Assembly: GCA_021234155.1 (NCBI GenBank) | Contig: JAJEKV010000174.1 | Span: 675,466-739,465 of the forward strand | DNA from: Isoetes taiwanensis | Lineage: Eukaryota > Streptophyta > Lycopodiopsida > Isoetales > Isoetaceae | Reading direction: 5' to 3' | DNA length: 64,000 nucleotides | In this document: piece by piece, positions 36,634 to 64,000 of the stretch | How the letters are laid out: each line of letters opens with the position of its first letter | Position numbering within the stretch: the stretch's first letter is position 1 | Notes under the pieces: model-generated | The model's database searches: none | What the model was told of the DNA's origin: nothing | The model's input: the letters and a program-made list of their open reading frames with translations, nothing else | Translations under genes and position numbers: made by a program

Positions 36634-36640
36634 GGATGAG

Positions 36641-39100
36641 TTTTTTTTTTTTTTTTTTAATTACTAATAAACAGTTGGTATGACATATCTTATTATACCT
36701 CTACGGCAGGTTATACAAAGATCATTCTATGTTATATGCTCCCAATATATGAAAAGATAAATGTCCGCAACGCTTAGCATATAAGACATGAATATGACTT
36801 CTTCATTTGACAAAAATGTGTATCTAAAATTTGCATATTTTTTAGCACTTAGAACTAGGATAATTCTGAACAGTTAGGTTTCCATATTTCTAACACTTGG
36901 GTTGGTATCTAGGCAACATATTTCTTACATTTGCGTAAATAGTAACATGAAAATTTGACGATTATATGGCTTTACTAGCAAAATGGATGCAACAAAAATA
37001 TTAGGGCTTCGACCGATGGTCGTTGTCCAACATGGCCGATGATTCCAACTGGATAATCTATCATCTTGCTCGACCATGCGGGTAAGTCTATTGCATGCAT
37101 GACACATAGATATTACGCTATGAATCAGATGATTTTGCTTTACTGGTTCTAGCCTTACGGGTGTAAATCGGCACATGATGTTAAAGGCAAAGAGCTAAGA
37201 AATTAACAAATCGAAAATATGATTGTAGATAAATAGGGCAAAGAGGTCTAAATCGTCTGCGACTTCATTTTGCATCTCCTTGTGGATCAAGAGCATGACT
37301 AGGAAGAAGGGGAGATCTTGGCATGGCCACCGAAAAAAAAAGAATGGAAGAAAGAAGGCTAAATCGCCAAAGTAAGGAAGCTCTATCAGTTCCATAAGCA
37401 CCAATGTCACCAATGTAACGATGGATCTACCACAAAGATAAGCAATACTCTTGTATCCTGATCCGACCGGGAAACGAGCATTCAAGAAGGTGCGCCTTCA
37501 CGAGAAAAGCAATGAAGCGGATCCTATCCCCATGCGAGGCAAAAAGAAAATAATGAAGATTCAGGCAAAGGCAAAGACATCATGGAGCAGGGATGCTGAA
37601 AATATACCTTCAAGGCAATCTCATCAGGTTATATCCTTTCTAGTTATTGTTCATTTATTGCTAAATAGGATCGATACAATAAATGTTTGCCTGGTTGTTC
37701 CATGCTCAAGTAATCTTGTTGACAACTTCAGCTAGATTAGATCGACCACCCATATACTTGTTATAATTTTATTTAAAGGATTTCCTATTTGTATCGGTTA
37801 TTTTGCTCCATATTTGGCTTGATGTTGCTCTTAAAAGTCTTGATTACATAGCTTATTGCATGTCATTTCTTGTTTCATTGAATATTACTTAGCCATGCAT
37901 GTTCAACATCTTTGAAACGAATCTGCTTAACATTGCGAGAAATAGATTGTAGCCTAAATGATTGCTAAATCTGAAATATAATTGCATATTGATTATCCTC
38001 TTGTGTAAGCTTCCTAGTGATTTAGTATGCTTACATTTGCACTATATCATGCATGATCGATGTTAAGGGAATAGGCTTGGCTCTCTATTCTTGTCTAAAA
38101 GACTTATCTCTACATGTTGAGCAATAAATTTGTTAAAACTATAAGTTAGCATGTTTTAGCGGCATAGACGGATTACATATGTTGATCTTGCTGATATATA
38201 ATGGATCTGTGGCTAGGAAATATGGTTGGGCTCTATATTCTTGTCTAAAGAACAGTGCACTATATTCTCTATAGGCTGTTCAATATTTCTTACTAAAGGC
38301 CGTAAGAAAAAGTCATCTGGCCAAAGATATTGCTTTTCTTAATGCATTAATGCCATCATGTTGTTTCACAATAGGGCCTTTGGCCGATGAGGTGAAAGCT
38401 ATCATGAAGTTCACATAAATGCAAAACATCACTTACTAACATATTTGTTTTGCATTTTTTATATTTTATACCATTTTTTGGGAACTCCTTCGATGTGAAG
38501 GGTGGTAAACCCAAGAAGTTTATTGCTTACCTACATGTCCTTTTGATTTTACCCTTCTTAGGCTAATAATTGAATGGTTGGCATGCAGGTAACCAAACTT
38601 CTTGCTCATCGTTGGAGTTTATGAATATTCTTCATGAAATAAACATCTATTGTATTGGCTAAGATTCAAGTACTCTTGTAAGTATCTTATCCGAAAAATG
38701 TTCTAGTCTTTGTTTGTACAAGTGGAACAATCATTGCCCATCTTACTGCTATCTTGAATCTTTTGACAAGGTAGTTTGCACTACATAATACAATGATTCT
38801 TGATTTTGCTTATATGAAAAATTCTTTTTCAGATGACTATTACTGTTGTAATATGGTTCAAATTTCTTAAAAACAATGTATGATTCTTTTTTTGATCTCA
38901 GATGTACATATTTACTATTTTGTCACTAAATTGTTTTCAGATACTATGAAGTAATTAAATATGATTGACCAAATCAAGGCCTAAGTTTACATGGTCACCT
39001 GGTGTATTCTTAGGACTGCTAATTGGATTTTAAATTCCCTGAACAGGGTTTTTAAGATTAGAATTTTGTCTAGACTTAGACAAGATTAAAGGATTTTTTT
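36641..39100 (+). repeat. E1 5' direct repeat (DR1)
   Basis: Starts T18-aattactaataaacag and ends ...gacaagattaaagga-T7. Contains a broken copy of exon 1 (37,295-37,627) and a terminal small hairpin (39,068-39,081). Most of the repeat is non-coding, AT-rich DNA with no long frame. Confidence 0.92.
37295..37627 (+). pseudogene. E1 exon 1, 5' DR copy (frame broken)
   Basis: Homologous to the open exon at 43,972-44,301, but with several small indels, for example aggaagaagggg versus aggaagaaggg and atcctgatccgaccggg versus atctgcatctgactggg. The donor catcag|gttata is kept. The indels sit mostly at CAG/CTG sites and may be assembly errors rather than real damage. Confidence 0.7.
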
Positions 39101-39130
39101 GCTTAACTCAGTGCTCTAGTTTAACTAGAG
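39068..39130 (+). promoter_or_regulatory. E1 5' junction: hairpin A, T7, hairpin B
   Basis: Hairpin A is GTCTA-gact-TAGAC (39,068-39,081). After 12 bases comes T7 (39,094-39,100), then hairpin B CTCTAGTT-T-AACTAGAG (39,114-39,130). The same order with compensatory base changes occurs in E2 and E3, so it is likely a functional RNA or DNA structure at the DR/internal boundary. Confidence 0.75.
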
Positions 39131-39199
39131 TCCTTGATTCTGGTCACATGATGACAGGTGTACACACTTTTCTTACCATATGTACACTTATTTGTTCAG

Positions 39200-40814
39200 G
39201 TAAAATCTGTCTTCGACATACAAGATGATGACATGAATAATATCCAGTGGATAAAAGAGCTGGCCAGTCTCAAATATAATGAGTGTGAAGTGGATAGCCC
39301 AAGTTATGCAGTTCAAACACTTCTAGCCTGTATCAAGAACAAGGAGATACACGCATTTATTACACTCAAGGAAAGAAATCTTATTGATAAATCCAGATCG
39401 CCTGTTACCTATCTCGGGTATAGTTGCTGGTCCAGAATGTTCTACAACATGAAAAAAGTCAACTTCGAGTTCAATAAATGTAAGGATAGCATTTCACTAT
39501 TATACAAGGAATTTCCAAGCATTCTCTATAACAGGACATGTAATGAAATGAAGCGACCGGAAAATTTAAAATTGCCGTGGGAATTATGGCCCTTGAAGAG
39601 GCCAATAATATTAAACCTCCCACTTTTTTGAAAAAGAGGAAAAACTCTCTACGCTCCTGTATATCTCACGGGGAAGAAATACATATTTGCGTTTTCGGAT
39701 ACAGACCTTCTTGAGGAAGACTTTCAAAGTCTTGATGCCAATAAGGCCATAAATCGATGAATCCAATCGAGAACTTTTCTCTGACGGATGAAAATGTCCC
39801 AAATCTTAATTTGGCAAATTCTGCCTGCTTTCCTATGGCCAGTGAACAAATTGTTGAATGCAACAGTGCCTCTTATGGCCATGCTATATGGAAAAGCATG
39901 AATTTTGGTGCACTTGCCCCATTAAACCTTGAAACATGGATCTGCATTGCTGGCATAACTGATGCAGAAGTGAAAAAGGCGAAATCAGCTGCCCTAAGCT
40001 TTGAGAAGATGTTTACTGTTATCGACTTGGCTGAATTACCATTTGACATAACTTTTTTTGATCAGCCCTGCATAAAAAATTCAGGTTTATGTGTCAAACA
40101 GAAAGGACATATGGCCTACACTACCATAACGCGTGATGACTTCTACTTGAAAAGGATCTGGAGATCCTTCTGTCCCTATTTTACATGCAAATGCATCAAG
40201 AACAATGCCAAGAATTCTTGCAAAAGCGGAATTATTTGGATTGACCATGGATTATGGTATCTCCTCAACAATATGGAAGTTATCTACGATAATGACACCA
40301 ATGATGAAAATGGTCATCTTCTCCAAGCTGCTCAACAAAGTGCTAAAACCTGCCATCATTGCCTATGCAGGCTATCTGGATGTGAGAAAAATGCTCATTG
40401 ATATGACAATGGCATATGCTAAAACACCCAATGCAAATCTGAAAGCTATGTTTGGTAACAATAAATTAGCTGATTTAGCGGAGAAGACTATCAAACCTAT
40501 CACATTTCTGGAAAAACAAGCGCAGAGCAGCAAAAGTGCCTATATGCAGAAAACAAATTCTAATAAAAGTGGCAGTTCTTTGGAATACAGCAGAGGGATT
40601 AACAAGATCATTCCTAAGTACCCTCCAAGAATCACTAAAGACCCAAAGATTGGATATTCAGAAAATGCTTCATCTGCTTCACCTAGCATCGACCCCAAGG
40701 GCACGTCAACTATCAACCTGGATGAATATTCTGTTACAAAGGGAGGCAATAAAACTATCTCAATTGGAGGGCGATTCGGGGCTGGAACTTAACTTTGCAA
40801 ATATTCCCAAGTAA
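39200..40814 (+). pseudogene. E1 ORF1, conserved element protein of unknown function (frameshifted)
   Basis: An acceptor-like cttatttgttcag precedes 39,200, where the reading frame V-K-S-V-F-D-I-Q-D-D-D begins in phase 0. Frames 39,158-39,631, 39,757-40,401 and 40,205-40,792 together match the E2 ORF1: A-V-Q-T-L-L-A-C-I-K, N-F-G-A-L-A-P, K-G-H-M-A-Y, T-R-D-D-F-Y-L-K-R-I-W-R, C-P-Y-F-T-C-K-C, W-I-D-H-G-L-W-Y and A-E-K-T-I-K-P-I-T-F-L. At least two frameshifts are needed to connect them. The conserved Cys/His and aromatic residues suggest a folded, possibly zinc-binding core. I do not recognise the family. By position it corresponds to a gag/ORF1. Confidence 0.7.
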
Positions 40815-41299
40815 TAAGAGGCTGGATACTGAGCTCTGACAGATCTTGATGGTCTATCATTAAACTCTTTTTAGAATAATAACTCTATTATATGAAGTCA
40901 CAAATATGTGTTTTTGTACGCACACCATTTTGGCCTGCTAAATGCATTGGCACCATGACTTGGATAGTCACATATAATACATATAGCTGTCGTTTATGAT
41001 TCCTATGTCTAGAGCAATTTTTCATTTACATGTTTCCTTTTATCAAAGTTAGAGTACTTACGATGGTTAACAAAGGGTATTCATTCAGTTAAGCAGGGGA
41101 GAACCAAGATCTTTTTTTATAAAGATCCAAATGGAAAAGAGACACTGCTTGAATAACAGAGCCAAAAAGCAAGAGCGGATCATTCACATGACTTTTTATC
41201 CAAATCATTGGATAAATTTAATATCGAAGAATATTTCAAGAGGTACCGACCGAAATCCTAGACCAAAGAGGGACTGATTTAGTAAATGCAACTATTTTT

Positions 41300-43103
41300 A
41301 GCTGGAAATATGTAGATCAAATCAGGGGAAAAAGTCTAAAACCATTACAAGGTGTTTCTTTGAGGAAACGACCAATAAATGTCCTTTGCCCGAACCGTCT
41401 CTAGCAAAGTTTGTTGATCCCAAGATCATTACATTCAAACTACCAATTTGGATATAATTCACGCCCAAAATTAAAACTAGCAATGGCCAAAGGACTCAAT
41501 CACATACCGGATCTTTGGGTTTGGCACACAAACATTCATGGAAGAATTCTGGCAAGCTTTGTTTCTGATTTTCTCGGTTATAAGTTTGAGTTACTTTCGA
41601 CATTTTCGAGGGATGACATCAGAAAATAAAAGAAGTCCTGATGCACTATGCTCATCTTTGAGATTGTAGATTTCGGAAAAGAAATGTAAAGGAAAAAGAT
41701 TCCTATGGGATGACAAAAATGTTATGAAGAACATGGATTGGTGACAAAGAATTTCTACATTGCGGATTGGACAAAGCAAATAATAATGCACGGCGTTCAT
41801 ATGTCGAAATTTATTGCCGAGATAAGGCACTTTGCGAACTTAATAGTGCTGATTTTGAGATCATCAATGAGCATACTGATACAATCAAAGAAAAATGCAA
41901 AGCTGAAATATGTAGCATGCTTAATACAGGGAACTTCAAAAAGCGATAACTTGCCATATTTAATGGCCACTTTCAAAATGCACAAAAAAGAATCTGGATG
42001 GCTTACAAATGCCCATCATCTTGTATTCCGCAAATTCTTGAGGTCATCACTACTATTCTTAACAATATTTTGGACATATGGCCTCTTATCATCCACGAAA
42101 TACTTGCTAAATATAAATTATGGCATAAAAATGGATTAATGCAGCTGGATAGTAAATTACGCCTATGATAGGGTGCTTAATCTCCCAACCAAAATTTATG
42201 ATGTATTCTCTACCGACATTACTAAATGCTCTGAGAACATCCTTAGAGGGAGGATGGTATCTCTGAAATTATAAATGATATTGCTGATTTAATATGGGAT
42301 TACATGAGAGATGATCAGCGCAAGTTCCATATGCTTATTAAATCCGGCGGGGTCAAGTATATTATATGTTGGGAGAAGAACCTCAAAAAGATAAGGAAAG
42401 CATATCTTTGAAGTGCGAAATTACAAAAGAACATTTCAAACATATGAACCAATGGCTACTCAATCACTGCTATCTCTGCAAATGGGCAGTAAAATATGGA
42501 GACAGAGAAAAGGAATACCAATGGGTTTTGCATCGAGCCCAGCATGTGGTGTAACTTGTACCGGCACATGCAATTGAAATTCATTCTTAAATTAGCTTTC
42601 GTCTGAAGCGAGGTTTCAAGATATCTATAAATTTCAGTCTGGCGGCTAGATACATTGATGACCTCAATATCCTTAATGGGGGTAATGTCAAGCAATTCCT
42701 TACAGATGATGCTGATATCTCAATCTACAATATGCAACACCTTGGAATTAAGGATGAGGCGGAATACAAAGAGATGATGGATATACATGAACAGGTTGGT
42801 TTTAAATGCAATTTCTTGAATGTATCCATTGAAGTCAGCGATCAAGCTAGGGGATATTCAACATCACAAGGTATGATAAACGCCGCAAATTACCCTTCAC
42901 GGCTCAAAAATATTTATTATATGGGCGAGATGGATCACGAGACCATATGGACAAGCATCAAGGGTTATAATATCTCAAATTACGCCCTATGTTTACACCA
43001 ACTCATGTCCATTCATTGCGGCGGCATATATTGCTCAACTAGCTCAAAATTACGCAAAAATGGATTTGCAAAGCGGATTTATGATTGGTTATACAAACTC
43101 TAG
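41300..43103 (+). pseudogene. E1 reverse transcriptase (broken), YIDD box
   Basis: Pieces in several frames align to the E2 RT: A-K-G-L-N-H-I-P (about 41,485), D-K-A-N-N-N-A (41,767), L-P-Y-L-M-A-T-F-K-M-H-K-K (about 41,950), Q-W-L-L-N-H-C-Y-L-C (42,452), A-R-Y-I-D-D-L-N-I-L-N (42,645; Y-I-D-D at 42,651-42,662), and a C-terminal F-L-N-V-S-I-E-V. The catalytic Asp pair of motif C survives, but frameshifts throughout make this copy dead. Its divergence from E2 at the protein level while motifs are kept implies both descend from active, selected elements. Confidence 0.8.
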
Positions 43104-43200
43104 AAGGCGACCGGTTCAATTATTCTTTACAATATAAATGATATGCTTAAAGTACTGAAAGCAGCACTATATGGATAAGTTGATAATGGAGTAATTGCAA

Positions 43201-43328
43201 CTATAGGGAGAGTAGGGCCTTTGATGCAGTAAGGCCCTACTCCCCTTACTGTATCCTAAATGATCGCATGTTTAGGAATGCTATCTGAACAAAGGCCCCT
43301 CAAACTACGGAAGGAGGTAGGTTTTTTT
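43201..43328 (+). ncRNA. E1 3' terminal structured module
   Basis: Starts CTATAGGG (43,201). The hairpin GAGTAGGGCCTT-(9-nt loop)-AAGGCCCTACTC (43,210-43,242) is perfect over 12 bp. A second hairpin, CCTAAA...TTTAGG, follows. CAAAGGCCCCT downstream can compete for the first hairpin's 5' strand. The module ends CTACGGAAGGAGGTAGG-T7 at the 3' DR start. It is a structural counterpart of E2 53,023-53,133 and E3 62,566-62,677. The expected role is RNA-level (RT recognition, 3' end formation or processing), by inference. Confidence 0.7.
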
Positions 43329-45762
43329 ATTACTAATAAACAGTTGGTATGACATATCTTGTTATACCTCTACGGCAGGTTATACAAAGATCATTCTATG
43401 TTATATATGAAAAGATAAATGTCCGCAACGCTTAGCATATAAGACATGAATATGACTTCTTCATTTGACAAAAATGTGTATCTAAGCTGCATATTTTTAG
43501 CACTTAGAACTAGGATAATTCCTGAACCAGTTAGGTTTCCATATTTCTAACACTTGGGTTGGTATCTAGGCAACATATTTCTTACATTTGCGTAAATAGT
43601 AACATGAAAATTTGACGATTATATGGCTTTACTAGCAAAATGGATGCAACAAAAATATTAGGGCTTCGAATAAGTAAACTGGAGTATGATACGGCCGATG
43701 GCCGTTGCTCCAACATGGCCGTGATTCCAACCTGGATAATCTGCATACTGCTCAGCCATGCAGGTAAGTCTATTGCATGCATGACACATAGATATTCTGT
43801 TATGAATCAGATGATTTTGCTTTACGGTTCTAGCCTTCTGGTGTAAATCGGCACATGACGGTAGCAAGGGCTAAGAAATTAGCAAATCGAAAATATGATT
43901 GTAGATAAATAGGGCAGCAGGTCTAAATGCGTCTGCAGCTTCATTTTTGCATCTCCTTGTGGATCAGTAGCATGACTAGGAAGAAGGGAGATCTTGGCAT
44001 GGCCACACGAAAAAGAATGGAAGAAGAGAAGGCTAAATCTGCCAAAGTAAGGAAGCTCTATCAGTTCCATAAGCCTGCCAATGTCACCAATGTAGCAGAT
44101 GGATCTACCACAAAGATAAGCAATACTCTTGTATCTGCATCTGACTGGGAACAGAGCATTCAAGAAGGCTGCCTTCCTGAGAAAAGCAATGAAGCAGATC
44201 CTATCCCCATGCAGGGCAAAGAAAATAATGAAGATTCAGGCAAAGGCAAAGACATCATGGAGCAGGATGCTGAAAATATACCTTCAAGGCAATCTCATCA
44301 GGTTATATCCTTTCTAGTTATTGTTCATTTATTGCTAAATAGGATCTGATACAATAAATGTTTGCTGGTTGTTCCATGCTCAAGTAATCTTGTTGACAAC
44401 TTCAGTTAGATCTGACCACCCATATACTTGTTATAATTTTATTTAAAGGATTTCCTATTTGTATCAGTTATTTTGCTCCATATTTGGCTTGATGTTGCTC
44501 TTAAAAGTCTTCAGTACATAGCTTATTGCATGTCATTTCTTGTTTCATTGAATATTACTTAGCCATGCATGTTCAGCATGCTGAACAAATCTGCCTAACA
44601 TTGCAGAAATAGATTGTAGCCTAAATGATTGCTAAATCTGAAATATAATTGCATATTGATTATCCTCTTGTGTAAGCTTCCTAGTGATTTAGTATGCTTA
44701 CATTTGCAGCCTTATCATGCATGATCTGATGTTAAGGGAATAGGCTTGGCTCTCTATTCTTGTCTAAAAGACTTATCTCTACATGTTGAGCAATAAATTT
44801 GTTAAAACTATAAGTTAGCATGTTTTAGCAGCATAGACGGATTACATATGTTGATCTTGCTGATATATAATGGATCTGTGGCTAGGAAATATGGTTGGGC
44901 TCTATATTCTTGTCTAAAGAACAGTGCACTATATTCTCTATAGGCTGTTCAATATTTCTTGCTAAGGCTGTAAGAAAAAGTCATGCAGCAGTATATTGCT
45001 TTCTTAATGCATTAATGCCATCATGTTGTTTCACAATAGGGCACTGGCCGACTGAGGTGAAGCTATCATGAAGTTCACATAAATGCAAAACATCACTTAC
45101 TAACATATTTGTTTTGCATTTTTATATTTTATACCATTTTTTGGGAACTCCTTCGATGTGAAGGGTGGTAAACCCAAGAAGTTTATTGCTTACCTGCATG
45201 TCCTTTTGATTTTACCCTTCTTAGGCTAATAATTGAATGGTTGGCATGCAGGTAACCAAACTTCTTGCTCATCGTTTGGAGTTTATGAATATTCTTCATG
45301 AAATAAACATCTATTGTATTGGCTAAGATTCAAGTACTCTTGTAAGTATCTTATCTGAAAAATGTTCTAGTGCTGTTTGTACAAGTGGAACAATCATTGC
45401 CCATCTTACTGCTATACTGAATACTGGCAGCAAGGTAGTTTGCACTACATAATACAATGATTACTGATTTTGCTTATATGAAAAATTCTTTCAGATGACT
45501 ATTACTGTTGTAATATGGTTCAAATTTCTTAAAAACAATGTATGATTCTTTTTTTGATCTCAGATGTACATATTTACTATTTTGTCACTAAATTGTTTTC
45601 AGATACTATGAAGTAATTAAATATGATTGACCAAATCAAGGCCTAAGTTTACATGGTCACCTGGTGTATTCTTAGGACTGCTAATTGGATTTTAAATTCC
45701 CTGAACAGGGTTTTTAAGATTAGAATTTTGTCTAGACTTAGACAAGATTAAAGGATTTTTTT
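43322..45762 (+). repeat. E1 3' direct repeat (DR1')
   Basis: Starts T7-attactaataaacag and follows DR1 to its end ...gattaaagga-T, merging into the T17 run that opens E2. It contains the open copy of exon 1. Confidence 0.92.
43972..44301 (+). CDS. E1 exon 1 (inside the DR), intact in the 3' copy
   Basis: Open from ATG at 43,972 (M-T-R-K-K-G-D-L-G-M) for 110 codons to a donor CATCAG|GTTATA, ending in phase 0 (...N-I-P-S-R-Q-S-H-Q). The protein is highly charged, Lys/Arg-rich at the N-terminus and Glu/Asp/Ser-rich later, and resembles a basic RNA- or nucleus-targeting leader. In the 5' DR the equivalent exon would splice to the acceptor at 39,199, also phase 0. Frame and donor are seen in the sequence. 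The splicing itself is inferred. I recognise no family. Confidence 0.55.
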
Positions 45763-48700
45763 TTTTTTTTTTATATATATGTATGAAAAATAGTGCATTT
45801 CCAGTTCAAAACTTCTGGCTGAGCAGGGGCTTCTTGTCTATGAATAAATACCAGTGACAAAATAACCATTTGAGATGTACACTAGAGAGCCCAAATGGGA
45901 TTTTTTATCTACATATTATACTAGGCCACCACAATGTTATACATTGGACTCATGTTCCAGAATGCACATAATAACTCGTTCATCCTGCATAAAGCATAAA
46001 ATCATATAGATATAACTAGGTATCTTTATCTCCTTACTTCATCCTTGATGCTGAAACTGGCCTTTTGCAGAGTATACCATGTAATTACTTGTTGTACACC
46101 ATGTAATTACTTGTTGAGTGATATTTCAAAAAATTCTAAAGACCCGCTGTGATCTAGTTTTTTTATCTCACTCATATATTTGGAAATTCTTGCACATTTA
46201 AACTATAGTTCACTTCACATCCTAGTGTTTTCTACTAGCTGGATACTAGACTGACCCCTTACACCTTGTACAAAGGCTTATGGTACCTCTCACCTAACAT
46301 GAATTTGACACTTCTAACTACTGTAAATTGTAATAACATTTACTTCTACATATATAATCTATGTTTAACCTAAAAATGTTTTTTTCCCACGCTCGATAGC
46401 CCTGAGGATAGAAGAAAAAACCTTACCCTACATGCAAGCTAGCTGACAGTCCAGAATATCGGCCAGGCATGGCGATGGCGACTTACCTATTGAATTGGTG
46501 CACTAGAGCAGGGTTTCCCACCCTTTTTTTTGCAGATCCGGTAAGATCCTACCCACCTTAACCTAGGATTCGGATTGGTAACTTAGGGTTTCCAAAGAGC
46601 CTCAAATGTGGAACCTGGATTCAGACCAAAACCCCCTCACTTCTAGTTCAGACGAGGAAGCGTTGAGGGAGGAGTTCTTCTGGTGAATTTCTTGCTTGTC
46701 TATCGGACTCGATTTTTCTTGAATACAATAAATCAATGACCCGTCGTAAGGAATATAAAAGAGGCGAAAAAGAGGAATTCGTTTGGAGCTAGGGCCCTTA
46801 GCGGTAACAAAAAAGCATAATGGTGAATCCAAAGGTATACACAATAGTATTGGTGATAAAGACTTCTGGCTGGCTGAGCTATCCATTCACCAAACACAAC
46901 AAGAAGATGAGATTTCTTCGATCAAAGAAGATTGTCGGGTATAACCTTTAAGTTTTAAACTTAAATCGGGGATATGGATGCTGAAAATAGTCAGATTCAT
47001 TAGCTCCACTTGAGTTAGTTGATTAATGACTGAGATGCTCGCCATAATACAGGTCAACGTATTCAAACTATGGCTTTTTATTGAATTTCGAAATATTTTC
47101 CTTTGTAATATTACCTTAAATACTAGTCTCTTTTTCTACCTTGTCTTTCAAGCATGCAGTGGTAAAAAGGATACAATGGTGAACGGTGATAAACCGAGAA
47201 GTCTCATTGTACCTTTTGGCCCTTCATGCATTACCATTCTTATGCTAATGTCATGTTGTTTTGGCTGCAGTACCAGAGCTTCTCACGCCATTGTATTTTC
47301 TTTGTTTCGGTTTTGCTTGAAGATAATGGTGTTCTCGAGACTGGACTGGATTGCATACTTAGCTTTAAGGAAAAGAAAATGATGGAGACAAATTGACTAT
47401 AACTATGGTTTTTCTATCTCAAAACTTTTGGATCTCGGTGGTTGACTTTAATTGTTTCTAAATGAATAGATAGTTCATTGCATAGCTGGTAAATATGCAA
47501 TATTTTGCTTTTGCTAGGTGTCGATAGCACCCCTTGAAAGTTACAAGGCGTTTTTTTTTACTGCGGTTTATCGATATGATTAACAAGGGATATCTCGGAC
47601 CAAGTGACACACATACATGCCTCTCGGTTTTTTCTACCATACAAGAGCTAATGTCTATTAAGATTTTTGAATCGGTGTAGCCTTTGTTTCTTCGTTTAAT
47701 CAAAATAGACCACGGAATTCTAATGATTGTAAAGAGCTTCTTGCTTTTTAAAAGTTTGTGGTTTAAGTGATATCTTAGGCTGACCATAAAAGGGCATGAG
47801 GTTGAAACAAATCCACCTATAGCTTCCCTGGATCGTGCTTTTGTTACATATGAACTTTAAGTTTGCCAAAGGCTAGTATCTCTATAATACTACAAAGAAA
47901 TTATCTTAGCTGCTAGTGTGGCATATGATTCTGCTAAAACTACTCCATACACTTTGTTTTGGTCTCTTTTAAACCTACAGTAAGTACTATAATATGAAGT
48001 CCGATAGGCATGATCATTTTTCACCGAAGGTTTCTTTGTTTAATCGAGTCCCCTTTTTTTAAGGGTCAAATGCTCATAGTAGTCCAAGCACATCATTGGC
48101 AGTTATGTCCCTACCATGATATTTGTCTAACAACTGAAATATACATTTAGATTCAGTATTTGAGTCTGTTTATAAGAATGGCATGGCCTATTAGGAATAG
48201 CTTTTAAATCTTTGCTGGATTGCCTCTATACACTACTTAATACATAGTCGGAGCATAAATAGGCATTGGGCTGAATCTGTCCACATATAGATTCACCGCT
48301 TGTTTGTGTTACATAGTCTTTATGACTGTTAAAGGTTATTTTCTCCAGAGTACTACAATAATAATTGTAACAGTAGGGGTAACATATGTTGCAGGTTTAT
48401 AATACTCCATACGCACTATTTTGACTACTGCAACACAATATCCGTGCTATAATTTGCAGTCTAGTATTCAAGAGTATTGTCCTGGAAGACGTAGCTGTTT
48501 AATCGAGTGCCCTTTATAAAAGTTTAAATGAGTATAGTAGACCAAGCACGTCTTTGGCATTTAGGCTCCTACCATGTTTTATGTTTAAGAACTGAAATAA
48601 ACATTTTGACGCAATAATAGGGTCTAAATATAAAGATTGCACTTTCTTTTAAGAATTGCTCTTAAATCTCTGCCAAAGAGCCTCTTCACACTATATAATA

Positions 48701-49023: not shown

Positions 49024-49119
49024 TTGCCTGTATCTATGTAGTTTCTGTCGTTCTTTCCTTTATTACGCAAACTATTTCTACTCACAATGCTACACACTCA
49101 TATGTGCTGAACATTACAG

Positions 49120-52977: not shown

Positions 52978-53022
52978 AGGTATTTCTCTTCGTAAGGCAG
53001 TTCTTTTAACATCAATATTTCG

Positions 53023-54296: not shown

Positions 54297-55192
54297 GTAT
54301 AACCTTTAAGTTTTAAACTTAAATCCCGGGATATGGATCTTTGAAAATAGTCGATTCATTAGCTCCACTTGAGTTAGTTGATTAATGACACGAGATGCTC
54401 GCCATAATACAGTCACCGTATTCAAACTATGGCTTTTACTTGAATTTTGAAATATTTTCCTTTGTAATATTACCTTAAATACTAGTCTCTTTTTTCTACC
54501 TTGTCTTTCAAGCATGCGGGGGCAAAAGGATACAATGGCTGAATCGGTGATAAACCGAGAAGTCTCATTGTACCTTTTGGCCCTTCATCTGATACCATTC
54601 TTATGCTAATGTCATGTTGTTTGGTCAAGCCCAGTACCCGAGCTTCTCCACGCCATTGTATTTTCTTTATTTTCGTTTTTGCTTGAAGATAATGGTGTTA
54701 CGGAGACCGGACCGATTGCATACTTAGCTTTAAGGAAAGAAAATGATGGAGACAACAAATATAACTATGGTTTTCTATCTCAAAACTTTTGGATCTCGGT
54801 GGTTGACTTTCTTGTTTCTAAATGAATAGATAGTTCATTGCATAGGCGGTAAATATGCAATATTTTGCTTTTGCTAGGTGTTGATAGCACCCTTGAAAGT
54901 TACAAAGGCGTTTTTTTACTCCACGGTTTATGAGATATGATTAACAAAGGGATATCTCGGACCAGTGGACACATACATCTTTGCTCGGGTTTTTCTACCA
55001 TACAAGAGCTAATGTCTATTAAGATTTTGAATCGATGTAGCCTTTGTTTCTTCATTTAATCAAAATAGACCACGGAATTCTAATGATTGTAAAGAGCTTC
55101 TTGCTTTAAAAGTTTGTGGTTTAAGTGATATCTTAGAGCTGACCATAAAAGGCATGAGGTTGAAAGCAGTCCACCTATAGCTTCCCACAATG

Positions 55193-55355
55193 TTTTTTTT
55201 TTTTGAAGAACGTGTCGGCAATATATTAAAAAAGAATGGTAATGTTACAAAGCAAGTGAGGAGGAAGGAGAACTTTGCCCCAAAGAGACGCGATGATACC
55301 TCGACACTCCACAACAACCTGCAACTCTTCTTTTTTGTACAAACTTCCCCCCAAG
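55193..55355 (-). mobile_element. Short 5'-truncated LINE insertion in DR2'
   Basis: Present only in the 3' DR copy. Starts with T12 (a poly-A tail on the minus strand) followed by gaagaacgtgtcggcaatat, which resembles the 3' end of plant L1 elements. The other copy (about 47,835) reads straight across. Confidence 0.7.
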
Positions 55356-56447
55356 TTTTGTTACATATGAACTTTAAGTTTGCCAAAGGCTAGTATCTCT
55401 ATAATACTACGGTAATTATCTTAGCCGCTAGTGTGGCATATGATTCTATTTAAAACTACTCCATACACTTTGTTTTGGTTCTTTTAACACGCAGTAAGTG
55501 CTATAATATGAAGTCGATAGGCATGATCATTTTTCTGGAAGGTTTTGCTGTTTAATCGAGTCCCCTTTTTTTAAGGGTCAAATGCTCATAGTAGTATATA
55601 CATTTAGATTCAGTATTTGAGTCTGTTTATAAGAATGGCATGGCCTATTAGGAATAGCTTTTAAATCTTTCTGCCGGATTGCCTCTATACACTACTACTT
55701 AATACATAGTGAGACATAAATAGGCATTGGGGGCAATACGTCCACATATAGATTCACCGCTTGTTTGTGTTACATAGTCTTTATGACTGTTAAAGGTTAT
55801 TTTCTCCAGAGTACTACAATAATAATTGTAACAGTAGGGGTAACATATGTTGCAGGTTTATAATACTCCATACGCACTATTTTGACTACTGCAACACAAT
55901 ATCCGTGCTATAATTTGCGGTCTACTATTCATGAGTATTGTCCTGGAAGACGTAGCTGTTTAATCGAGTGCCCTTTATAAAAGTTTAAATGAGTATAGTA
56001 GACCAAACGCGTCTTTGGCATTTAGGCTCCTACCATGTTTTATGTTTAAGAACCCCGAAATAAACATTTTGGCCTTAATAATAGGGTCCGAATATAAAGA
56101 TTGCACTTTCTTTTAAAATTGCTCTTAAATCTACTCAAAAGAGCCTCTTCACACTATATAATATAATGGTTCAATGGTTCTAGGTAGGTTTACTTGGCCT
56201 CTAGATTTCAAGATCTGTCTATTGTAATTGATTCAAGGGTTCCCGATATGATCACTTGGCCTCTAGGCTTTAAGATTTTTTGATTACAATGGTTTCTGTA
56301 ATAATAATAATAGGTTTTGGAAAAGAATGATAAGACTTATAGATCACAGGCACCAGATTTGAATGAACTTTCAAATGATTGGATTGATAATACGGTGGAA
56401 GGATTGACTGAAGCCGATGTCTGACCTAGGATTCTAGGTTAAGCCGG

Positions 56448-58750
56448 TTTTTTTTTGCATTAATAAATGTAAATATCCAATTGCTTAGACATGGGGTCTT
56501 TTTTGATGAAGTATTGGCCATTGTGGGCTTTACAAATTAAAATGATCCTTTAAACTCTTGTTTGCCATATGTTGGAAATCCATACTTAATGCGTGGAACT
56601 GCTTGAATGGGCTATGCATTTGGACTTCGCAAGGGAAGTTGCATTATTTAATATTTTACATAACCCTTTTAATGCATGGTTTCTATCTGGCTTGCATGCA
56701 TGCACTTTTAGCATGAGATTATTATTACTTGCAAGGAAATTGAAGTGTATTGCTAAAAGAGGGAGAATAGATGAAGATTGAATGCCCATTTGGCAACCCA
56801 ACATATTGGGTTCGTTGCCCCAATACAAGGAGCACAAAGGTATGTTTTTTACTTCAGTGCTGCCCTATGGCTGATAACAGTAGAAGATATCACTTATATA
56901 TTTTGGTTGTTGCACCGTTTTGCGGTGCGAATCATTCATGTGCCCTAGCAATGCCGCAAGAGGCTGCAAGGTTACCATGCACCTTTTGTGTTCATATTCC
57001 AAAGACTATGCATCTTCTACAACTCTACAAATTTACTTTTTATTTGATAAATCTTTGTAATGTTCAATAGTTTATTGGTTAAGACACTTGCATGCTGTAG
57101 AAATGGCAGAGGTTCAAAACTGTAGTAGAACACTTTTCACATGGCATTTTTATTTTATGCCCTAAAGCGGCCGAAAGCCTAATGCGGCCGCCATGCTTTT
57201 TTACTCCAGTGCGGCCAAGCATAAAATTGCTCTTATGTGCGCCATGGCTTGACCGGATTTGCTATTGCTTCTCTAAGACTTGTACCGCTTCAAATCCAGG
57301 CTTTAGTGCAAAGCCTTGTGAAGCTCTTGCCAAGAAATCTGCCAGATAACTGGATTTGGTCATTGTCTACACATTCTTAGCATCGGTGAAGCTGATCTTC
57401 TAAAATGGATGTTATCTCATGCTACTGATGCAACACTAAGATATGCTGATCTTCTTACACCGACGGCTTCATTCCAGGTCGGTATATATCTAATTTGACA
57501 TTTGAATATTTATTCCTATCTGTTATTCCGTGGATCGGCAAATAGGTGAAGTTAAAAGCTGCCTGATATTCAATAATCTGATTTGTTAATATGCAATTTT
57601 GCATTGATTTTCCATGTGAGTACACAAGTTTCCATTAATTTTTCATATAGCTTATCTTTGTCTTTGCTTTGGACAAAAACTATAAGCATTTCACATGCTG
57701 TTACTATATAATCAAGGGCTCTAATTTCTTAGACTTAATAATGCATCTGCTGAAATTTGGATCAGCATATCCATTGCTGGAATTTAGTGCATCCAATGCT
57801 GGAATGCTATACTGGAACTTTGCTATTCTATACATTATACAAAGCAGTGTCTATTTCTAACGTATATACTGTTGACTAATAACCTCTATTGAGAATAAGG
57901 TGAAAGGCGATAAGCCGTGGTGTTCTATAGCTTACCTGTCATCCCTTGTCTAGTTACCAAGTTTATTGCTAACTTTGGCATGTTTGGGTGCAGGTAACCA
58001 GAACTCCACCTCCTTGAGTTTTTGTAGGATGTTACAATGCTGTTATTCGGATTACGACCATGTTAATACATGGTTCTAATTATTGAGATAAGTATCTCTG
58101 TTTTTCTAACTTTCTAGAAGAATAAGTTTTGAGCACAATGTTTACTTTTCATTTTCTGATAGTTGAAATCGTAGAACAAGGCAGCTTGAGAGTTTTGCCT
58201 AGTTGTGTATTCCAAAGAAATAGAAGATTGATGGCGATATCAAAAGACATGGAATAAACAGGATTGTTTTATATTATGTGGAAATGTCTGATTTTTGCTA
58301 TTCTATTTCTTATGCAAACATCTTTGTTGTTCCTTTTGGGAACTTTGACATTGATCTTTGTTTCAAACGAGTTGGACATAAGGAAATGTTTTCCTTTTTA
58401 AGGTTTCACTTGAGTTTTCATTCCAAGGTATCACTTGGGCATTGGACACGAGTTTTGGAGTTTCATGTCTTTCTAGTGTGATGTATAAAGATTTTTCTTA
58501 TTAATTCTCTTGTGTTCAAGGATCGGATGTGCTGTCATTGGACACTCATTTGGAGGTTCCATGTTTTTCATGATCTGTATGAAAGTTTATCTTGTTAATT
58601 CTCCTGTGTGCTCAAGGACCTGATGTGCCGTAGGTGGCCTAAATGGTTACATGTACGGATAGATAACAGTACCAAGGGATTGACTGCGGTATGTAGAGGT
58701 GGCTAGTATGGCTTCTGTCAAGGCTAGTGCTGTCTGGGTTTTTTTTTTTT
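56448..58750 (+). repeat. DR4: candidate solo direct repeat of the same element type
   Basis: The unit is bounded by a T9 run (56,448-56,456) on the left and a T12 run (58,739-58,750) on the right, exactly abutting DR2' and DR3. Its 3' end (gggattgactgcggt...ctgtctggg-T) is laid out like the E2 and E3 DR ends (ggattgac...ccggg-T). An internal segment (ggtgcaggtaaccagaactc, about 57,990) resembles DR1 (gcatgcaggtaaccaaactt, about 38,585). No second copy or internal region is present. Sequence similarity to the other DRs is low, so this is a positional and structural call. Confidence 0.45.
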
Positions 58751-61700
58751 AATTCCATAAATTTTGCTATGGCAAACAATATAGTGAATTATATAGTGGA
58801 ACAATAGTGAAGTATTGCTAGTTCAAATTATAGTGAAACAATAGTGATCATGCTTATAATTATAATTCTGTACCTATGTGAAATGATTGTGAAGCATGTT
58901 GGTCCATAACTTGGAGTTCCTCATGAAGCTAAAAAGAAAATAGGGGAACGTCTTGTAATCTGCAAGAGAACAAGACATGTAAAATGTTCCTGGCTCATAG
59001 ACATGTAAAATGTTCCTAGCTCATATTGCAGGGAAACAATATAGATCAGGCTTAGGGACGCCTCATGGAAAATATAATGGGACGGGACTCAGAAGGAAAT
59101 GATTTCCAAAAAAGAGAACAAGATATATAGAATTTTCCCTGGTTATGTAAAGGTATTGAGGTATCTAGGTCTGTATCTCAAGTCTTAGTGGGCAGATAGT
59201 GCCCCAAGTTGAATCAATAAATGATAGTTAACACTAGTGGTGGTGCTGAGGTTATTTAAAAATTTGTTGTATGGATGATACAATGGAAAAAAAAATAACG
59301 ACTTGTAGTGCATATAATCTAGGTTGAGTATGAAATAACTTGACAAAATTGGGTTAAGGATTTACATAGAACAGTAGGAGATGGATGATGGAAAAACCAG
59401 GGCATATCTGCAACATAAGGTTTTTTTTTTAAAAGAAACATATCTTAAAATATTGGGCCTAAGGTTGTCAATTATGGTTTATCTGGAAATAGTATTGAGG
59501 CTAATGGCCGAAAAGCTATCTGGAAATAGTATTGAGGCTAATGGCTAAAAACCTAACCGATCAAACTTCGGCTTACACTATTCGATGGCGATGGTCGGGC
59601 GATGTCCGGCAACTAAACGCATGGTAGCGGTAGAATCTGCGGGGAGTACCTCTGTTTCAAGCATGAGAGATAAAGCAACCGCCAGACAAGGTAAGTGAAT
59701 CCCCCATGCTAGATCTGTTCTAAGAATTTTGAGTCAAAACCTCTGCACGACAAACATGTAAGGGAATAGGTCTCCCGCTTTAAGAAAGCTCTTATCGCGG
59801 TTTATGGCGAAAAAAATCCCATTGAATAGTTAGAGTTAAATCCTTAGATATTTAGATCTTTACGAAATATGGAATGGGAATATGATTCGACTGAGACCCC
59901 TTAGTTCCAACTCAATATGAAGCATGAATGATAAAGGGTTAGAGGAAGAATTCAAAACCCAGTATTTCCTTATCCGAATGTTCTAAGGGCTACACAATGG
60001 GAGATATGCAAAGAAATCTTTGAAACTCAAAGAGGGAAGCAAATGCTTCCGAGGAGGAGGATATACCAACAAGAAGAGCAATTTTGGAGCAAAAATATGC
60101 ACACTAACAAAGGGAACTTGGATATTGAGATCTAGTATTCACGAAACCACGTACCGCAACAAGAATATGCATCGACAAGGGCCAATTTCAGTGTATTGTT
60201 GTTCAAAATAAATGTGGGCGTCGCGGCAATTAAGATCTAAATTAATGGGCATATAATGCTTAGTACAAAGAGTTACAATCAATGGGAAATGACTTGTAAG
60301 TTAGTACTTCAACCAAAATATCAAAGTTACTTGAAATTCGTTATATATTCAGTTCTAGTTATTTCTCTAAGCGGGCAAGAGGATACAAGGGCCTGATCGG
60401 CTATATCTTAGAGGCTCGGTATGCTGGCCCTTAAAATTACATTACCAATATTTTTGCTAATGTCATGATGTTTGGGCTTTTGCAGTCTTGGACCTCTCCT
60501 GCCCTTGTCTTTTCTTTGCTCGAAGTTTTTGAATTTGCTAGGATCTGGAATTGGAAATGGTTCCCCTACTTTCTGGGAAAACATTAATGATTGGAGATGT
60601 TTTTGCAAGCACCACCAGCATAACAGGGTTTGATATCAATCTATATTTCGTCTAAATACAGGTTGTATTGCATATGTGAATTTTCTGATAAACAATAGAC
60701 AAAATATGTACTTGATATGTACTCAAAGTTTGTTTACTGTATGGAAAAGGTAGAATTCTGTCATAAGTTATCGTTATTACAGTAATGGAAATCTGATTTT
60801 GGTATAAACATGTAAACATTCTCTATTTTTAAGAACAAGGATAAAGTTATGGAAAACTAGTGTCTATGAGCTATGGCATGTATTAAAATTTTAAATATAG
60901 TCTTGCAAAAGCAATGGTGGCAAGGAGTAAAAGCGGTCGCGTAAGTGTTTAAATAGGCATCCACTTTGAAGTGGCTAAGCGAAAAAATACAGGTCCTTGT
61001 ACAATAGGTTTTGGTCACGATAAACGTGCTCGAGGTTAAATAATTGTATGGCATTTTAGTGCTTAAACATGCCGCCTCCTTGAAGTTATAAAACAGGATG
61101 TCCCGCCCATGTATAGAAGGTCAGCTTGAGAAAAGAATAAAGTGCCATGAGGAATAAAAGCGGGTTGGTAATCTGGAGCTAATTGTCTAAGGTGTAATTC
61201 TCGTAATATGCAACCAAGCAATGGGCAACATGCATGCAAATATGGGCAAGCATTAGTCAAATTTTAGCTTAGAATTGACATGCAAGGGATGTGTGGTTCA
61301 GCGGCATGCATGCATGGCACGTAGCCTCTTCTAAAATGTTCCTCCTAAGGCTATAGGGTTGGTATGTAACCAAGGTTTAGGTATGTAACTATTGAGATAA
61401 ATGTTTTAAGACTTACATGTACTCGCATTATTTCCTTGAAAATCTGGAATGGATTGCACAGATGGTCTAAGAATGTAAGTAAGCATGGGGAAATGAAACT
61501 GTAAGGACAAGATTTTGCATGGATATATGTGCTGTAGGAATAAGGGCTTTAGACCATTGGAGTTTGTACCTCGAACCATTAAACTTTAATTCTGCTTGCT
61601 TATATTGACTATAGGCTTCTTTGGTATTATGACTTGTATTTACAAATTGGGGTGCTTGAGGCTAAAGGATAATAAGTACCGGTCTCATATGAAATTTCGT

Positions 61701-61781
61701 ATCCGGATTGATAATACAGCTACTGGGATTGACCAGGGTTGATGTTTGGCCTAGGGATCTAGGTTTGACCGGGTTTTTTTT
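58739..61781 (+). repeat. E3 5' direct repeat (DR3)
   Basis: Starts T12-aattccataaattttgctatgg and ends ctaggtttgaccggg-T8. Contains an early donor caag|gtaagt (about 59,690) and a frame-broken exon-1-like segment (atgggagatatgcaaag at about 59,998), which in the second copy is open. Confidence 0.9.
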
Positions 61782-61811
61782 AGACACTTCGATTCCTTGG
61801 TTTAACCAGGG
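61750..61811 (+). promoter_or_regulatory. E3 5' junction: hairpin A, T8, hairpin B
   Basis: CCTAG-ggat-CTAGG (61,750-61,763), T8 (61,774-61,781), then CCTTGGTT-T-AACCAGGG (61,795-61,811, including one G-T wobble). Same spacing and order as E1 and E2. Confidence 0.78.
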
Positions 61812-62030
61812 TTGCTTGTGTCCTTTAGCCTCATCCCTAATGTCCTTAGAGAAATATATGACTATATTTGAACAGATAACTTACTGGCTGTATTTCAGGA
61901 TGAAAATAGATATCTAGAAGAAGTGGGCTTTGAAGTAGTCCAACCTACATGAAAAATAGATGCACTTGTGCTTCAGGAAATATGTAACAGGTGATGGCAT
62001 GCCATTTATATTAATCTGACACTGTTGCAG

Positions 62031-62171
62031 GATGAAATCAATTACAAAGAAGAAGTGGAATTCGGTCCTTCCTATATAGAACAATGGGCTGACTGCTTTG
62101 GGATATACAGGTTGCAAAATGATGTTCTCGAACAGAATTCTGCTGGTCATCCAAAGCTTCAATGTCACTAA
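62031..62171 (+). CDS. E3 short internal exon
   Basis: After an acceptor (cactgttgcag, ends 62,030) the frame D-E-I-N-Y-K-E-E-V-E-F-G-P-S-Y-I-E-Q-W-A is open for 46 codons to TAA. Another acceptor-like site (ctgtatttcag, 61,898) starts D-E-N-R-Y-L-E-E-V-G-F and stops soon after. Both resemble the start of E2 ORF1 (F-D-E-E-Q-F ... P-P-T-W). So E3 may encode only exon 1 plus this short tail. Splicing is inferred. Confidence 0.4.
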   Translation, partial: DEINYKEEVEFGPSYIEQWADCFGIYRLQNDVLEQNSAGHPKLQCH

Positions 62172-62565
62172 GTAAAAGGTATGCAATTGTTCAAGTTTAT
62201 AAGTCTATCTTTTTTAAGGGCTGACCAGCTGAATAAAGCATATGGCAGTACCATTATATTACACACCAGATATCTGGTATAAAACAAAGAGGGCAAGTCC
62301 CTCATATACCATTTGGCAACAATAACTGAAAAGCCATATATATGGCTGTCGTTTTATCACTGCTTCTTCCAGTAGAAACGATCAACAACTTCAGTGCAAC
62401 AGTATAGCCCCAAAAGCAGAAAATTGTTGTACATATGAAGCAATGGCCTCCAAGATTCAAATATGGTGTACAAGTTCTCAACAAAGATTCAACAACCAGT
62501 ACTGATACGGTATGTCTTTAACTTGATGTTTTGGTTGGTATGGTTCAATAGGGAATAAATATTTA

Positions 62566-62677
62566 CTATAGGGTTGGGTCTGACCTCTGCTGTACTGTAG
62601 GGGTCAACCCTCCCCTATGCTATAGATTTCTCAAAAAATGGTCAACCCAGTCCTACGGAAGGAGGTAGGCTTTTTTT
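62566..62677 (+). ncRNA. E3 3' terminal structured module
   Basis: Starts CTATAGGG. The inner hairpin TAGGGG-(8 nt)-CCCCTA lies at 62,598-62,617. The outer pairing GGGTTG (62,571) with CAACCC (62,643) has lower stability than in E2. The end CCTACGGAAGGAGGTAGGC-T7 matches E1 closely. The module survives although all RT coding is gone, which fits a cis-acting role. Confidence 0.72.
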
Positions 62678-64000
62678 AATTCCATAAATTTTGCTATGGC
62701 AAACAATATAGTGAATTATATAGTGGAACAATAGTGAAGTATTGCTAGTTCAAATTATAGTGAAACAATAGTGATCATGCTTATAATTATAATTCTGTAC
62801 CTATGTGAAATGATTGTGAAGCATGTTGGTCCATAACTTGGAGTTCCTCATGAAGCTAAAAAGAAAATAGGGGAACGTCTTGTAATCTGCAAGAGAACAA
62901 GACATGTAAAATGTTCCTGGCTCATAGACATGTAAAATGTTCCTAGCTCATATTGCAGGGAAACAATATAGATCAGGCTTAGGGACGCCTCATGGAAAAT
63001 ATAATGGGACGAGACTCAGAAGAAAATGATTTCCAAAAAAGAGAACAAGACATATAGAATTTTCCCTGGCCACGTAAAGGTATTGAGGTATCTAGGTCTG
63101 TATCTCAGGACTTAGTGGGCAGATAGTGCCCCAAGTTGAATCAATTAATGATAATACTGGTGGTGGTACTGAGCTTATTTAAAAATTTGTTGTATGGATG
63201 ATACAAGGAAAAAAAATAACGACTTCTAGTGCATATAATCTAGGTTGAGTATGAAATAACTTGACAAAATTGGGTTAAGGTTTCACATAGAACAATAGGA
63301 GATGGATGATGGAAAAACCAAGGCATATCTGCAACATAAGGGTTTTTCTTAAAAGAAACATATCTTAAAATATTGGGCCTAAGGTTGTCAATTATGGTTT
63401 ATCTGGAAATAGTATTGAGGCTAATGGCCGAAAACCTATCTGGAAATAGTATTGAGGCTAATGGCGGAAAACCTAACTGACCGAAACTCAGCTTGCACTA
63501 TTCGATGGCGATGGCTGGCGATGTCTGGCAACTAAACGCATGGTAGCAGGCCGGAATCTGCAGGGAGTACCTCTGTTTCAAGCATGAGAGATAAAGCAAC
63601 TGCCAGACAAGGTAAGTGAATCCCCCATGCTAGATCTGTTCTAAGAATTTTGAGTCAAAACCTACAGACAGCAAACATGTAAGGGAATAGGTCTCCCGCT
63701 TTAAGAAAGCTCTGCACGGTTTATGGCAGAAAAAATCCCATTGAATAGTTGGAGTTAAATCCTTAGATATTTAGATCTTTCTGATATGGAATGGGAATAT
63801 GATTCAGACGGCAGACCCCTTAGTTCCAACTCTGAATATGAAGCATGAATGATAAAGGGTTAGAGGAAGAATTCAAAGCCTGTATTTCCTTATCTGAATG
63901 TTCTAAGGGCGTCTACACAATGGGAGATATGCAAAGAAATGCTGCAAACTCAAAGAGGGAAGCAAATGCTTCCAGAGGAGGATATACCAACAAGAAGAGC
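62671..64000 (+). repeat. E3 3' direct repeat (DR3'), incomplete at window end
   Basis: Starts T7-aattccataaattttgc and matches DR3 over at least 1.3 kb. The exon-1-like frame is open here from ATG at about 63,920 (M-G-D-M-Q-R-N-A-A-N-S-K-R-E) to the window end. It is basic and Ser/Asn-rich like E1 and E2 exon 1. Confidence 0.88.

Follow-up and report, generated by a model that had tools for sequence, protein, structure and literature searches.

A 64,000-nucleotide stretch of the Isoetes taiwanensis genome (assembly GCA_021234155.1, contig JAJEKV010000174.1, positions 675,466 to 739,465 of the forward strand; hereafter, the window) raises the question of what kind of retroelement places direct repeats of several kilobases around a reverse transcriptase (RT) gene and bounds its parts by runs of T. 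Between position 36,641 and the end of the window, a reading of the sequence alone had described three such elements, E1, E2, and E3, each composed of an internal segment (INT) between two direct repeats (DRs). This T-run-bounded DR-INT-DR anatomy was confirmed in the window and found again in other copies of the genome, and the RT is likely of the Penelope/telomerase type. With moderate confidence, we regard the elements as an endonuclease-less Penelope-like lineage whose DRs are pseudo-long terminal repeats (pseudo-LTRs) and in which a U8 of the RNA would pair with genomic A-tracts to prime copying.

Anatomy of the elements in the window

All ten DR boundaries listed in the sequence-only reading proved to be T-runs, which start exactly at 36,641, 39,094, 43,322, 45,756, 48,986, 53,126, 56,448, 58,739, 61,774, and 62,671 and measure 18, 7, 7, 17, 8, 8, 9, 12, 8, and 7 nt, respectively; for comparison, a T-run of 7 nt or longer is no more than 6 nt away at 2.0% of the positions between 36,641 and 64,000. 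The common plan of the three elements was likewise recovered by self-alignment, which placed the DR pairs of E1 at 36653-39100 and 43322-45762 (93.2% identity), of E2 at 45767-48993 and 53126-56456 (two pieces, at 93.9 and 90.1%), and, inside the window, of E3 at 58744-60079 and 62671-64000 (93.8%), the second DR of E3 being cut by the window end. Adding 5 kb of contig sequence from beyond the window made E3 complete; the alignment of its two DRs then spans 3075 columns with 93.4% identity, and a T19 closes the second DR. The internal segment also terminates in T7-8, and the T-runs are therefore not peculiar to the DRs. The ends are T-runs and, as had been reported, there are no TG...CA ends; a target-site duplication inside a T-run would be indistinguishable from the run itself.

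Read from left to right, with all features on the + strand, E1 begins with an outer T18 (36641-36658), followed by a 5' DR that terminates in T7 (36659-39100), an INT with broken ORF1 and RT frames that terminates in GGAAGGAGGTAGG-T7 (39101-43328), and a 3' DR (43329-45772) whose terminal T17 is common to E1 and the adjoining E2. The DRs of these two elements do not align with each other, even though the elements adjoin. E2 consists of a 5' DR terminating in T8 (45773-48993), an INT terminating in T8 (48994-53133), and a 3' DR terminating in T9 (53134-56456); its INT opens with AGATACTTCAATT and then a hairpin, CTCTGGT/ACCAGAG (48994-49035), and closes with CCCTACGGGTGGCGGTAGG-T8 (53107-53133). 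The interval between E2 and E3 (56457-58750, between T9 and T12) is not a spacer but a solo DR of another family; apart from the first ~70 nt, it aligns with 88-97% identity to the DR found in a tandem array of contig C46, and it carries the same RNA structure, SL-A, as the other DRs. E3 has a 5' DR terminating in T8 (58751-61781), a short INT of 0.9 kb without RT that keeps the INT start and the INT end and marks a non-autonomous form (61782-62677), and a 3' DR (62678-64000) that continues past the window to the T19.

The same junctions in copies elsewhere in the genome

The genome sequence searched comprised 1,658,258,908 bases in 1110 contigs. ORF2 of E2, which encodes the RT, matched at 88 places with 54-100% identity (the best 88 of 4176 candidates), and the anatomy was read in ten ORF2-matching copies outside the window, together with their surroundings. 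The DR/INT junction was a T7-9 in all ten copies, and the INT/DR junction was a T7-12 in nine and a T6 in the remaining copy, C919. Six copies were complete single DR-INT-DR elements read to both outer ends, three (C1, C919, and C905) continued as tandems with a second INT after the second DR, and the C1040a stretch ended before the outer end of the element. In the six complete copies, the left outer T-runs measured 15, 30, 29, 23, 16, and 28 nt (the last with one internal A), and the right ones 8, 39, 27, 12, 13, and 10 nt. The inner T-runs are thus short, nearly constant, and hence encoded, and the outer ones merge with the target. Copies ending at different points, which would have spoken against the proposed plan, were not found among these ten, all of which have the same junctions and six of which were followed to both outer ends; the DRs are tied to the RT region rather than being unrelated segmental duplications, and SL-A is present in two arrays and in the solo DR as well.

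Complete DRs were 2.2-3.6 kb long. Identity between the DRs of one element was 90-99.5%, and the E2 DR showed 81-84% identity to its relatives on C1058, C916, and C1089. The elements occurred as DR-INT-DR, as (DR-INT)n-DR, and as solo DRs. Tandems were represented by the C46 and C112 arrays and by a 7.8-kb ladder on C1078, and ladders of INT ends or starts spaced 2.5-3.9 kb apart correspond to non-autonomous forms with a short INT like that of E3. The C46 array carries a 5'-truncated INT at its left end (n = 1).

Both ends of the INT are sharply defined. The INT start is AGAYAYTTCAWTTC or a close variant, followed by the hairpin; when 40 of 226 matches to a T-free form of this motif were fetched, at least six Ts stood directly before it in 35, exactly T8 in 28, and T1, T1, T1, T4, and T5 in the remaining five. 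The INT end, CTACGGNNGGNGGYAGG followed by Ts, occurred 1067 times in the genome, and the reversed control pattern did not occur (0 matches). On fully listed contigs, the INT-end motif lay 135-182 bp past the ORF2 match in eight of nine ORF2 hits, the miss being C184. The INT 3' ends (e.g. 53107-53125) keep the pattern GG-NN-GG-N-GG-YA-GG, with free letters between the doublets, and these spaced GG doublets may possibly form a two-tier G-quadruplex or act as a polypurine signal.

The ORF2 reverse transcriptase

In E2, ORF2 lies at 50906-52977, with the frame broken near 51514-51640. All 26 ORF2 proteins compared with Pfam matched RVT_1 at E<=1, the best at 8.4e-8, and other families reached E 0.036 or worse. 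The alignment of the 26 sequences contains the motifs K-A-H-K...R-W-I-T-N-A-H, D-I-T-x-C-Y-E-x-I, G-I-P-M-G, Y-x-D-D, and H-x-x-x-C-R-P-Y-x-Q; in type and in order, we take these to correspond to the motifs of Penelope RTs. In a single-sequence profile comparison with RTs of the same genome, ORF2 matched telomerase (two exons) at E 0.0043, a weak match with an hhalign probability of 8%, and matched a long interspersed element (LINE) piece of 134 aa and Ty3/gypsy at E 0.11 and 0.35, respectively. These comparisons point to ORF2 as a likely Penelope/telomerase-type RT. The frame was free of stop codons in 72 of its 88 best-scored matches, most of which lie in frames of ~690-700 codons.

Neither ORF1 nor ORF2 showed a Pfam match to an endonuclease, RNase H, integrase, protease, or recombinase, and GIY-YIG gave no match at E<=1 in 26 ORF2 or 5 ORF1 proteins. 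GIY-YIG frames were located at 140 places of the genome and were considered as a source of endonuclease-bearing Penelope elements; this candidate was rejected, since none of the four loci fetched carried an RT of this family. One GIY-YIG frame adjoins a PIF1-like helicase frame (L086:2658-6001, - strand), a locus that we presume may be a Helitron-like element with a GIY-YIG nuclease. Solved structures in the Protein Data Bank (PDB) gave nothing meaningful for ORF2 or ORF1, and viral contigs gave 74 pattern hits and no relative. Structure models of the window ORF2 and ORF1, for which only the E1 fragments served as partners, reached mean pLDDT values of 36 and 37 and were discarded.

ORF1 and the predicted splicing across the DR/INT junction

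ORF1 is new, and no known relative of it was found in Pfam or the PDB; 58 of its 84 best-scored matches (the best 84 of 3796 candidates) lack a stop codon. Its second exon in E2 (49120-50652), of ~510 aa, follows a predicted CAG acceptor, and its first exon appears to lie in the DR. In all 11 RT-bearing families other than E1, a conserved exon terminating in PETQ... followed by GT was found at the same place of the DR. In the E2 3' DR, the last part of this exon occupies 54102-54296 and ends in ..SIPETQQEDEISSDQEDCR-GT at a predicted splice site, its start lying upstream of 54102, beyond a broken frame; in the E1 3' DR, an open frame at the corresponding place (43972-44301) has a predicted CAG-GT end without PETQ. 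The donors of the PETQ exon are mostly CAG-GT; C908 has AAG-GT, whereas E2 and one C1040b copy out of two have CGG-GT. For exon 1, dS could be estimated in 17 pairs, of which 16 had a dN/dS of 0.18-0.42 and the remaining one, the closest pair, had 0.86; these values are rough because most dS exceed 1.

Within the INT, AG acceptors with open frames in phase were read by eye, and ORF2 starts at an acceptor of the same phase as that of ORF1 exon 2. Splicing likely joins the DR exon 1 to ORF1 exon 2 across the DR/INT junction, and exon 1 may perhaps be joined to ORF2 by alternative splicing. Because SL-A, the INT-start hairpin, and the DR/INT junction all lie inside the predicted intron, only unspliced RNA would carry them. 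Retroviral packaging signals are likewise carried only by unspliced RNA.

Conserved RNA structures

SL-A is a structure of ~150 nt that lies downstream of exon 1 in each DR. Its prediction from twelve sequences contained 34 pairs, 18 of them with two-sided changes. The SL-A model covers six copies in the window: those of the E1 5' DR (38475-38626, 93.6 bits) and 3' DR (45138-45289, 94.7 bits), the E2 5' DR (47160-47308, 137.7 bits) and 3' DR (54519-54673, 123.5 bits), the solo DR (57873-58031, 104.5 bits), and the first DR of E3 (60372-60522, 38.6 bits, E 2.4e-7). The copies of the E1 3' DR, the E2 3' DR, and the solo DR were used in model building; the second DR of E3 also carries SL-A, and both E3 copies are independent of model building.

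Searching the genome loci with the model produced 30 matches (E<=0.1), distributed over 25 loci. Among these rows, nine are training sequences and others are the partner DRs of these; two rows are weak, with E values of 0.008 and 0.085, and one match, L015:533, is located outside the C908 element. Over 25 distinct rows, 92.4% of the cells pair, compared with 77.3% in shuffled alignments, and 23 of the 34 pairs show two-sided changes. The covariation score was 0.418, compared with 0.160 for shuffled alignments and with at most 0.112 for all slid versions, in an alignment that was fitted to the structure, which favours its score. The covariation in SL-A is strong. Rfam 15 contained nothing above the gathering score for SL-A, and 20 loci gave no match to any Rfam family at that score.

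At the INT-start hairpin, 97.8% of the cells pair (89.4% after shuffling) and the score is 0.353 (0.197 after shuffling), both values lying above all shuffles. Two-sided changes occur in only two of its seven pairs, a number reached by 116 of 500 shuffles, and its 5' side is partly fixed by the search pattern. Among 39 distinct DR ends collected with a loose pattern, the inner and outer pairs of a DR-end hairpin were C-G and A-T in 13, C-G and G-C in 5, C-G and G-T in 2, T-A and G-C in 2, and unpaired in that register in 17, which supports such a hairpin for one subfamily only. A hairpin at the INT end is not claimed, its CTAC/GTAG pairing being broken by the common GCAGG variant. A loose hammerhead core pattern gave a few scattered hits with no shared place.

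A/T tracts as apparent target sites

Empty sites were sought for three of the six flank pairs (C1058, C963, and C1040b), those of C1089, C908, and C907 being left out. On C915, a paralogue of the C1058 right flank, aligned over 521 columns at 91% identity, follows CTTTTTAG and a T11 and carries no element. The same CTTTTTAG precedes the left T15 of the C1058 element; further to the left the two loci differ, presumably as a result of a prior insertion of another element into TTTTT on the left side at C1058. The C1058 left flank itself belongs to a repeat that recurs at 32 further places and resembles the terminus of a different DR family. To the right of the C963 element lies a high-copy repeat, the matches of which include the T-run, as expected of the poly(A) tail of an oppositely oriented retroposon. 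In the window, E1, E2, the solo DR, and E3 adjoin one another. Given the T11 tract of the C1058/C915 comparison, the C963 flank, the C1058 left flank, and the abutting elements, A/T tracts, including the ends of the elements themselves, look like the targets. No double telomere-type repeat was found in window positions 36001-64000 or in ten other element stretches.

A proposed mechanism of copying and its rivals

In the anole Poseidon element, the first 172 nt of the ORF hold the minimal RNA, and RNA of tandem copies is copied from an internal start that lies 111-118 bp inside the ORF (PMC11167929). In the elements described here, a structured INT start stands right after the T8 of the DR end, at a place comparable to that of Poseidon, and we therefore propose an internal start at the corresponding U8. 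The RT would bind unspliced RNA at the INT-start structure, in analogy to the anole Poseidon protein, which requires RNA from just within its ORF, and copying would start at the DR-end U8, paired with the A-strand of a genomic A/T tract, and run upstream through DR, INT, and DR. The A8 of the cDNA, derived from the T-run in front of the DR, would then anneal to the other side of the tract and close the insertion. A stop at the first such site would leave a solo DR, and reading on would produce tandem arrays; the tracts used would be those provided by earlier copies at their ends and by other retroposons in their poly(A) tails. A single case, the 5'-truncated INT at the left of the C46 array, is in line with copying that begins at the right end.

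This scheme can be carried further, at a level that we regard as speculative and rather doubtful, to a two-module element. DR and INT would be separate RNA modules, each T8-ended at its 3' side, that are copied and joined by an endonuclease-less telomerase-like RT homing on A/T tracts by U:A pairing; the element would live off the poly(A) tails of retroposons and the ends of its kin, and the intron, with its packaging and start signals, would tell genome RNA from mRNA.

The rival explanations differ in which strand is copied and in what the repeats are. An antisense RNA whose terminal A8 is complementary to the T-run in front of the DR might be copied as DR-INT-DR from a 3' end made of Ts, like those that LINE endonucleases leave; we hold this to be unlikely, with several observations in its favor. 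It would also explain the retained introns, both ends of the element are T-runs and would allow priming at either, and T-run targets fit LINE-type nicks. Antisense Penelope templates have been discussed by Arkhipova et al. owing to intron retention (PMC3846280). Against it, the structured INT start adjoins the T8 of the DR end, whereas the DR start looks unconserved by eye, and the truncated left INT of C46 would be expected if copying begins at the right. The repeats might also be by-products of tandem amplification and unequal recombination of a DR-INT unit that alone transposes. Tandem arrays are indeed common (the 2.5-3.9-kb ladders, C46, C112, C1078, and three of the ten RT-anchored elements), yet six of these ten are single DR-INT-DR elements with outer T-runs of 8-39 nt at both ends, and the failure of the E1 and E2 DRs to align despite their adjacency also speaks against such an origin, which we consider improbable. 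Least probable, and mostly refuted, is a giant-LTR retrotransposon, in which the DRs would be LTRs made by strand transfer, the INT end GGNNGGNGGYAGG a polypurine tract, and integration the work of an unseen enzyme. The DR-INT-DR plan, the like DR pairs, the solo DR, the splice donor in the repeat, and the purine-rich tract before the 3' DR recall a Ty3/gypsy LTR element; however, the RNase H, integrase, and protease of such elements were not found in ORF1 or ORF2, the RT is of another type and does not match the host Ty3/gypsy RT, the ends are T-runs rather than TG...CA, and a T8 closing the INT is not predicted by LTR replication.

Several points weigh against the endonuclease-less Penelope-like reading that we prefer. 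The class of the RT rests on motif likeness and a weak telomerase profile match, and when the three intact proteins were taken singly, P0004 passed the Pfam cut-off for RVT_1 and P0006 and P0008 fell below it. No endonuclease was found that would open the target strand, and no hammerhead ribozyme was detected, either at the Rfam gathering score in 20 loci or at E<=2 in window positions 30000-64000. The comparison of C1058 with its empty site on C915 is one-sided, only ~22 nt being shared to the left of the T-tract, a T-run is missing from the corresponding place in the C963 left-flank paralogue, and a paralogue near C1040b has a T23 followed by other sequence. Copies on C1078 are as close to E2 (88-90%, one piece 93%) as the two DRs of E2 are to each other. 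The splicing is a prediction from the DNA. An ATG occurs in the first 25 codons of ORF2 in 17 of 30 frames, in some of them upstream of the acceptor, and is absent in 13; ORF2 thus need not borrow the start of exon 1, and the sharing of exon 1 is a possibility only. The DRs, at 2.2-3.6 kb, greatly exceed the ~0.2 kb of the Penelope/Poseidon repeats, those of Adineta vaga measuring 193-218 bp (PMC3846280). Finally, the anole start site is not homologous to the target (PMC11167929), which differs from the U:A pairing at the junction proposed here.

Other features of the locus

The differences between the DRs of E1 (36659-39092 and 43329-45755) fall mainly on CAG/CTG: 49 of 74 difference events touch a CAG/CTG of the 3' copy, with 18.6 expected, and CAG/CTG triplets number 33 in the whole 5' DR and 75 in the 3' DR. 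The same bias is weak in E2 (17 of 59 events, 9.7 expected). A probable source of these differences is Nanopore sequencing error left uncorrected where CHG sites of repeats are methylated, and the DR divergence may therefore overstate the age of the elements. The published assembly is described as 1658.30 Mb in 204 scaffolds and 909 contigs, built from Nanopore and Illumina reads and an optical map (PMC8566536).

The E2 3' DR contains a 0.17-kb insert (55187-55355) that is not present in the 5' DR, has a T12 near its start, and resembles a poly(A) retroposon tail in reverse orientation. A 0.47-kb tandem duplication of ~68% identity lies inside the E2 5' DR (47776-48242 and 48245-48700), and a similar one is present in the C1058 DRs. 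Directly to the left of E1, 36300-36640 (+ strand) reads as a protein end rich in acidic residues, with its stop codon just before the T18; we take it to resemble the beginning of a gene of the Harbinger type. Repeats of ~125-330 bp that are related to one another form a cluster of their own a short way upstream of E1 (34751-36047), and 10001-14000 has a GC content of 51-56% with two overlapping long frames, the rest of the window having 35-44%.

Relation to known retroelements and significance

The sequence-only reading had proposed an undescribed lineage, knowing of no described group with such a layout. That the elements follow one retroelement plan, with the same ends in the further copies read, was sustained, whereas the layout is partly known: direct repeats around an RT gene, tandems, and introns are known in Penelope-like elements. 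Pseudo-LTRs, tandems, and introns are described for them in PMC3846280, and an internal copying start, tandems, and pseudo-LTRs in PMC11167929 and PMC3846280. The claim of novelty stands only in the sense that no matching description was found in the literature searched; this literature, which lacked the main specialist works, contained nothing on Isoetes Penelope-like elements or on T8-ended ones that target T-tracts.

The elements share with the Penelope/Poseidon clade (PAc of Anolis and Pen of Adineta vaga; PMC11167929 and PMC3846280) direct repeats around the coding part, partial and full tandems, and solo pseudo-LTRs, and probably also a telomerase-related RT and introns kept in genomic copies. 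They differ in that neither the GIY-YIG endonuclease of canonical Penelope-like elements nor the hammerhead ribozyme that many of them have in the pseudo-LTR was found, in having a separate ORF1 with an exon in the DR, and in the encoded T-run at each junction. The endonuclease-deficient Penelope-like elements (Athena/Terminons of rotifers, and those reported from Selaginella; PMC12477314) are alike in their RT without endonuclease; Selaginella, moreover, is also a lycophyte. In Terminons, the template end is complementary to a repeat at the target (PMC12477314). A Terminon-like template end complementary to the target repeat would be a further likeness, although the complement here would be a U-run rather than telomeric repeats and the targets would be interstitial T-tracts. 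DIRS/PAT elements also have repeats around an RT and no DDE integrase, but the tyrosine recombinase and RNase H were not found here, and the direct repeats are simple and not split. LINEs have an endonuclease of their own and lack terminal repeats, whereas the present elements gave no endonuclease match and have direct repeats in the six copies read to both ends.

The mobility of Penelope-like elements is among the least known steps of retroelement biology, and those that lack an endonuclease are chiefly known as telomeric elements. With more than 1000 INT ends, many unbroken ORFs, sharp ends, and two covarying RNA structures, the Isoetes elements offer clean substrates for tests of internal priming, of what retained introns do, and of the way in which an RT lacking its own nuclease reaches a 3' end inside chromosomes.

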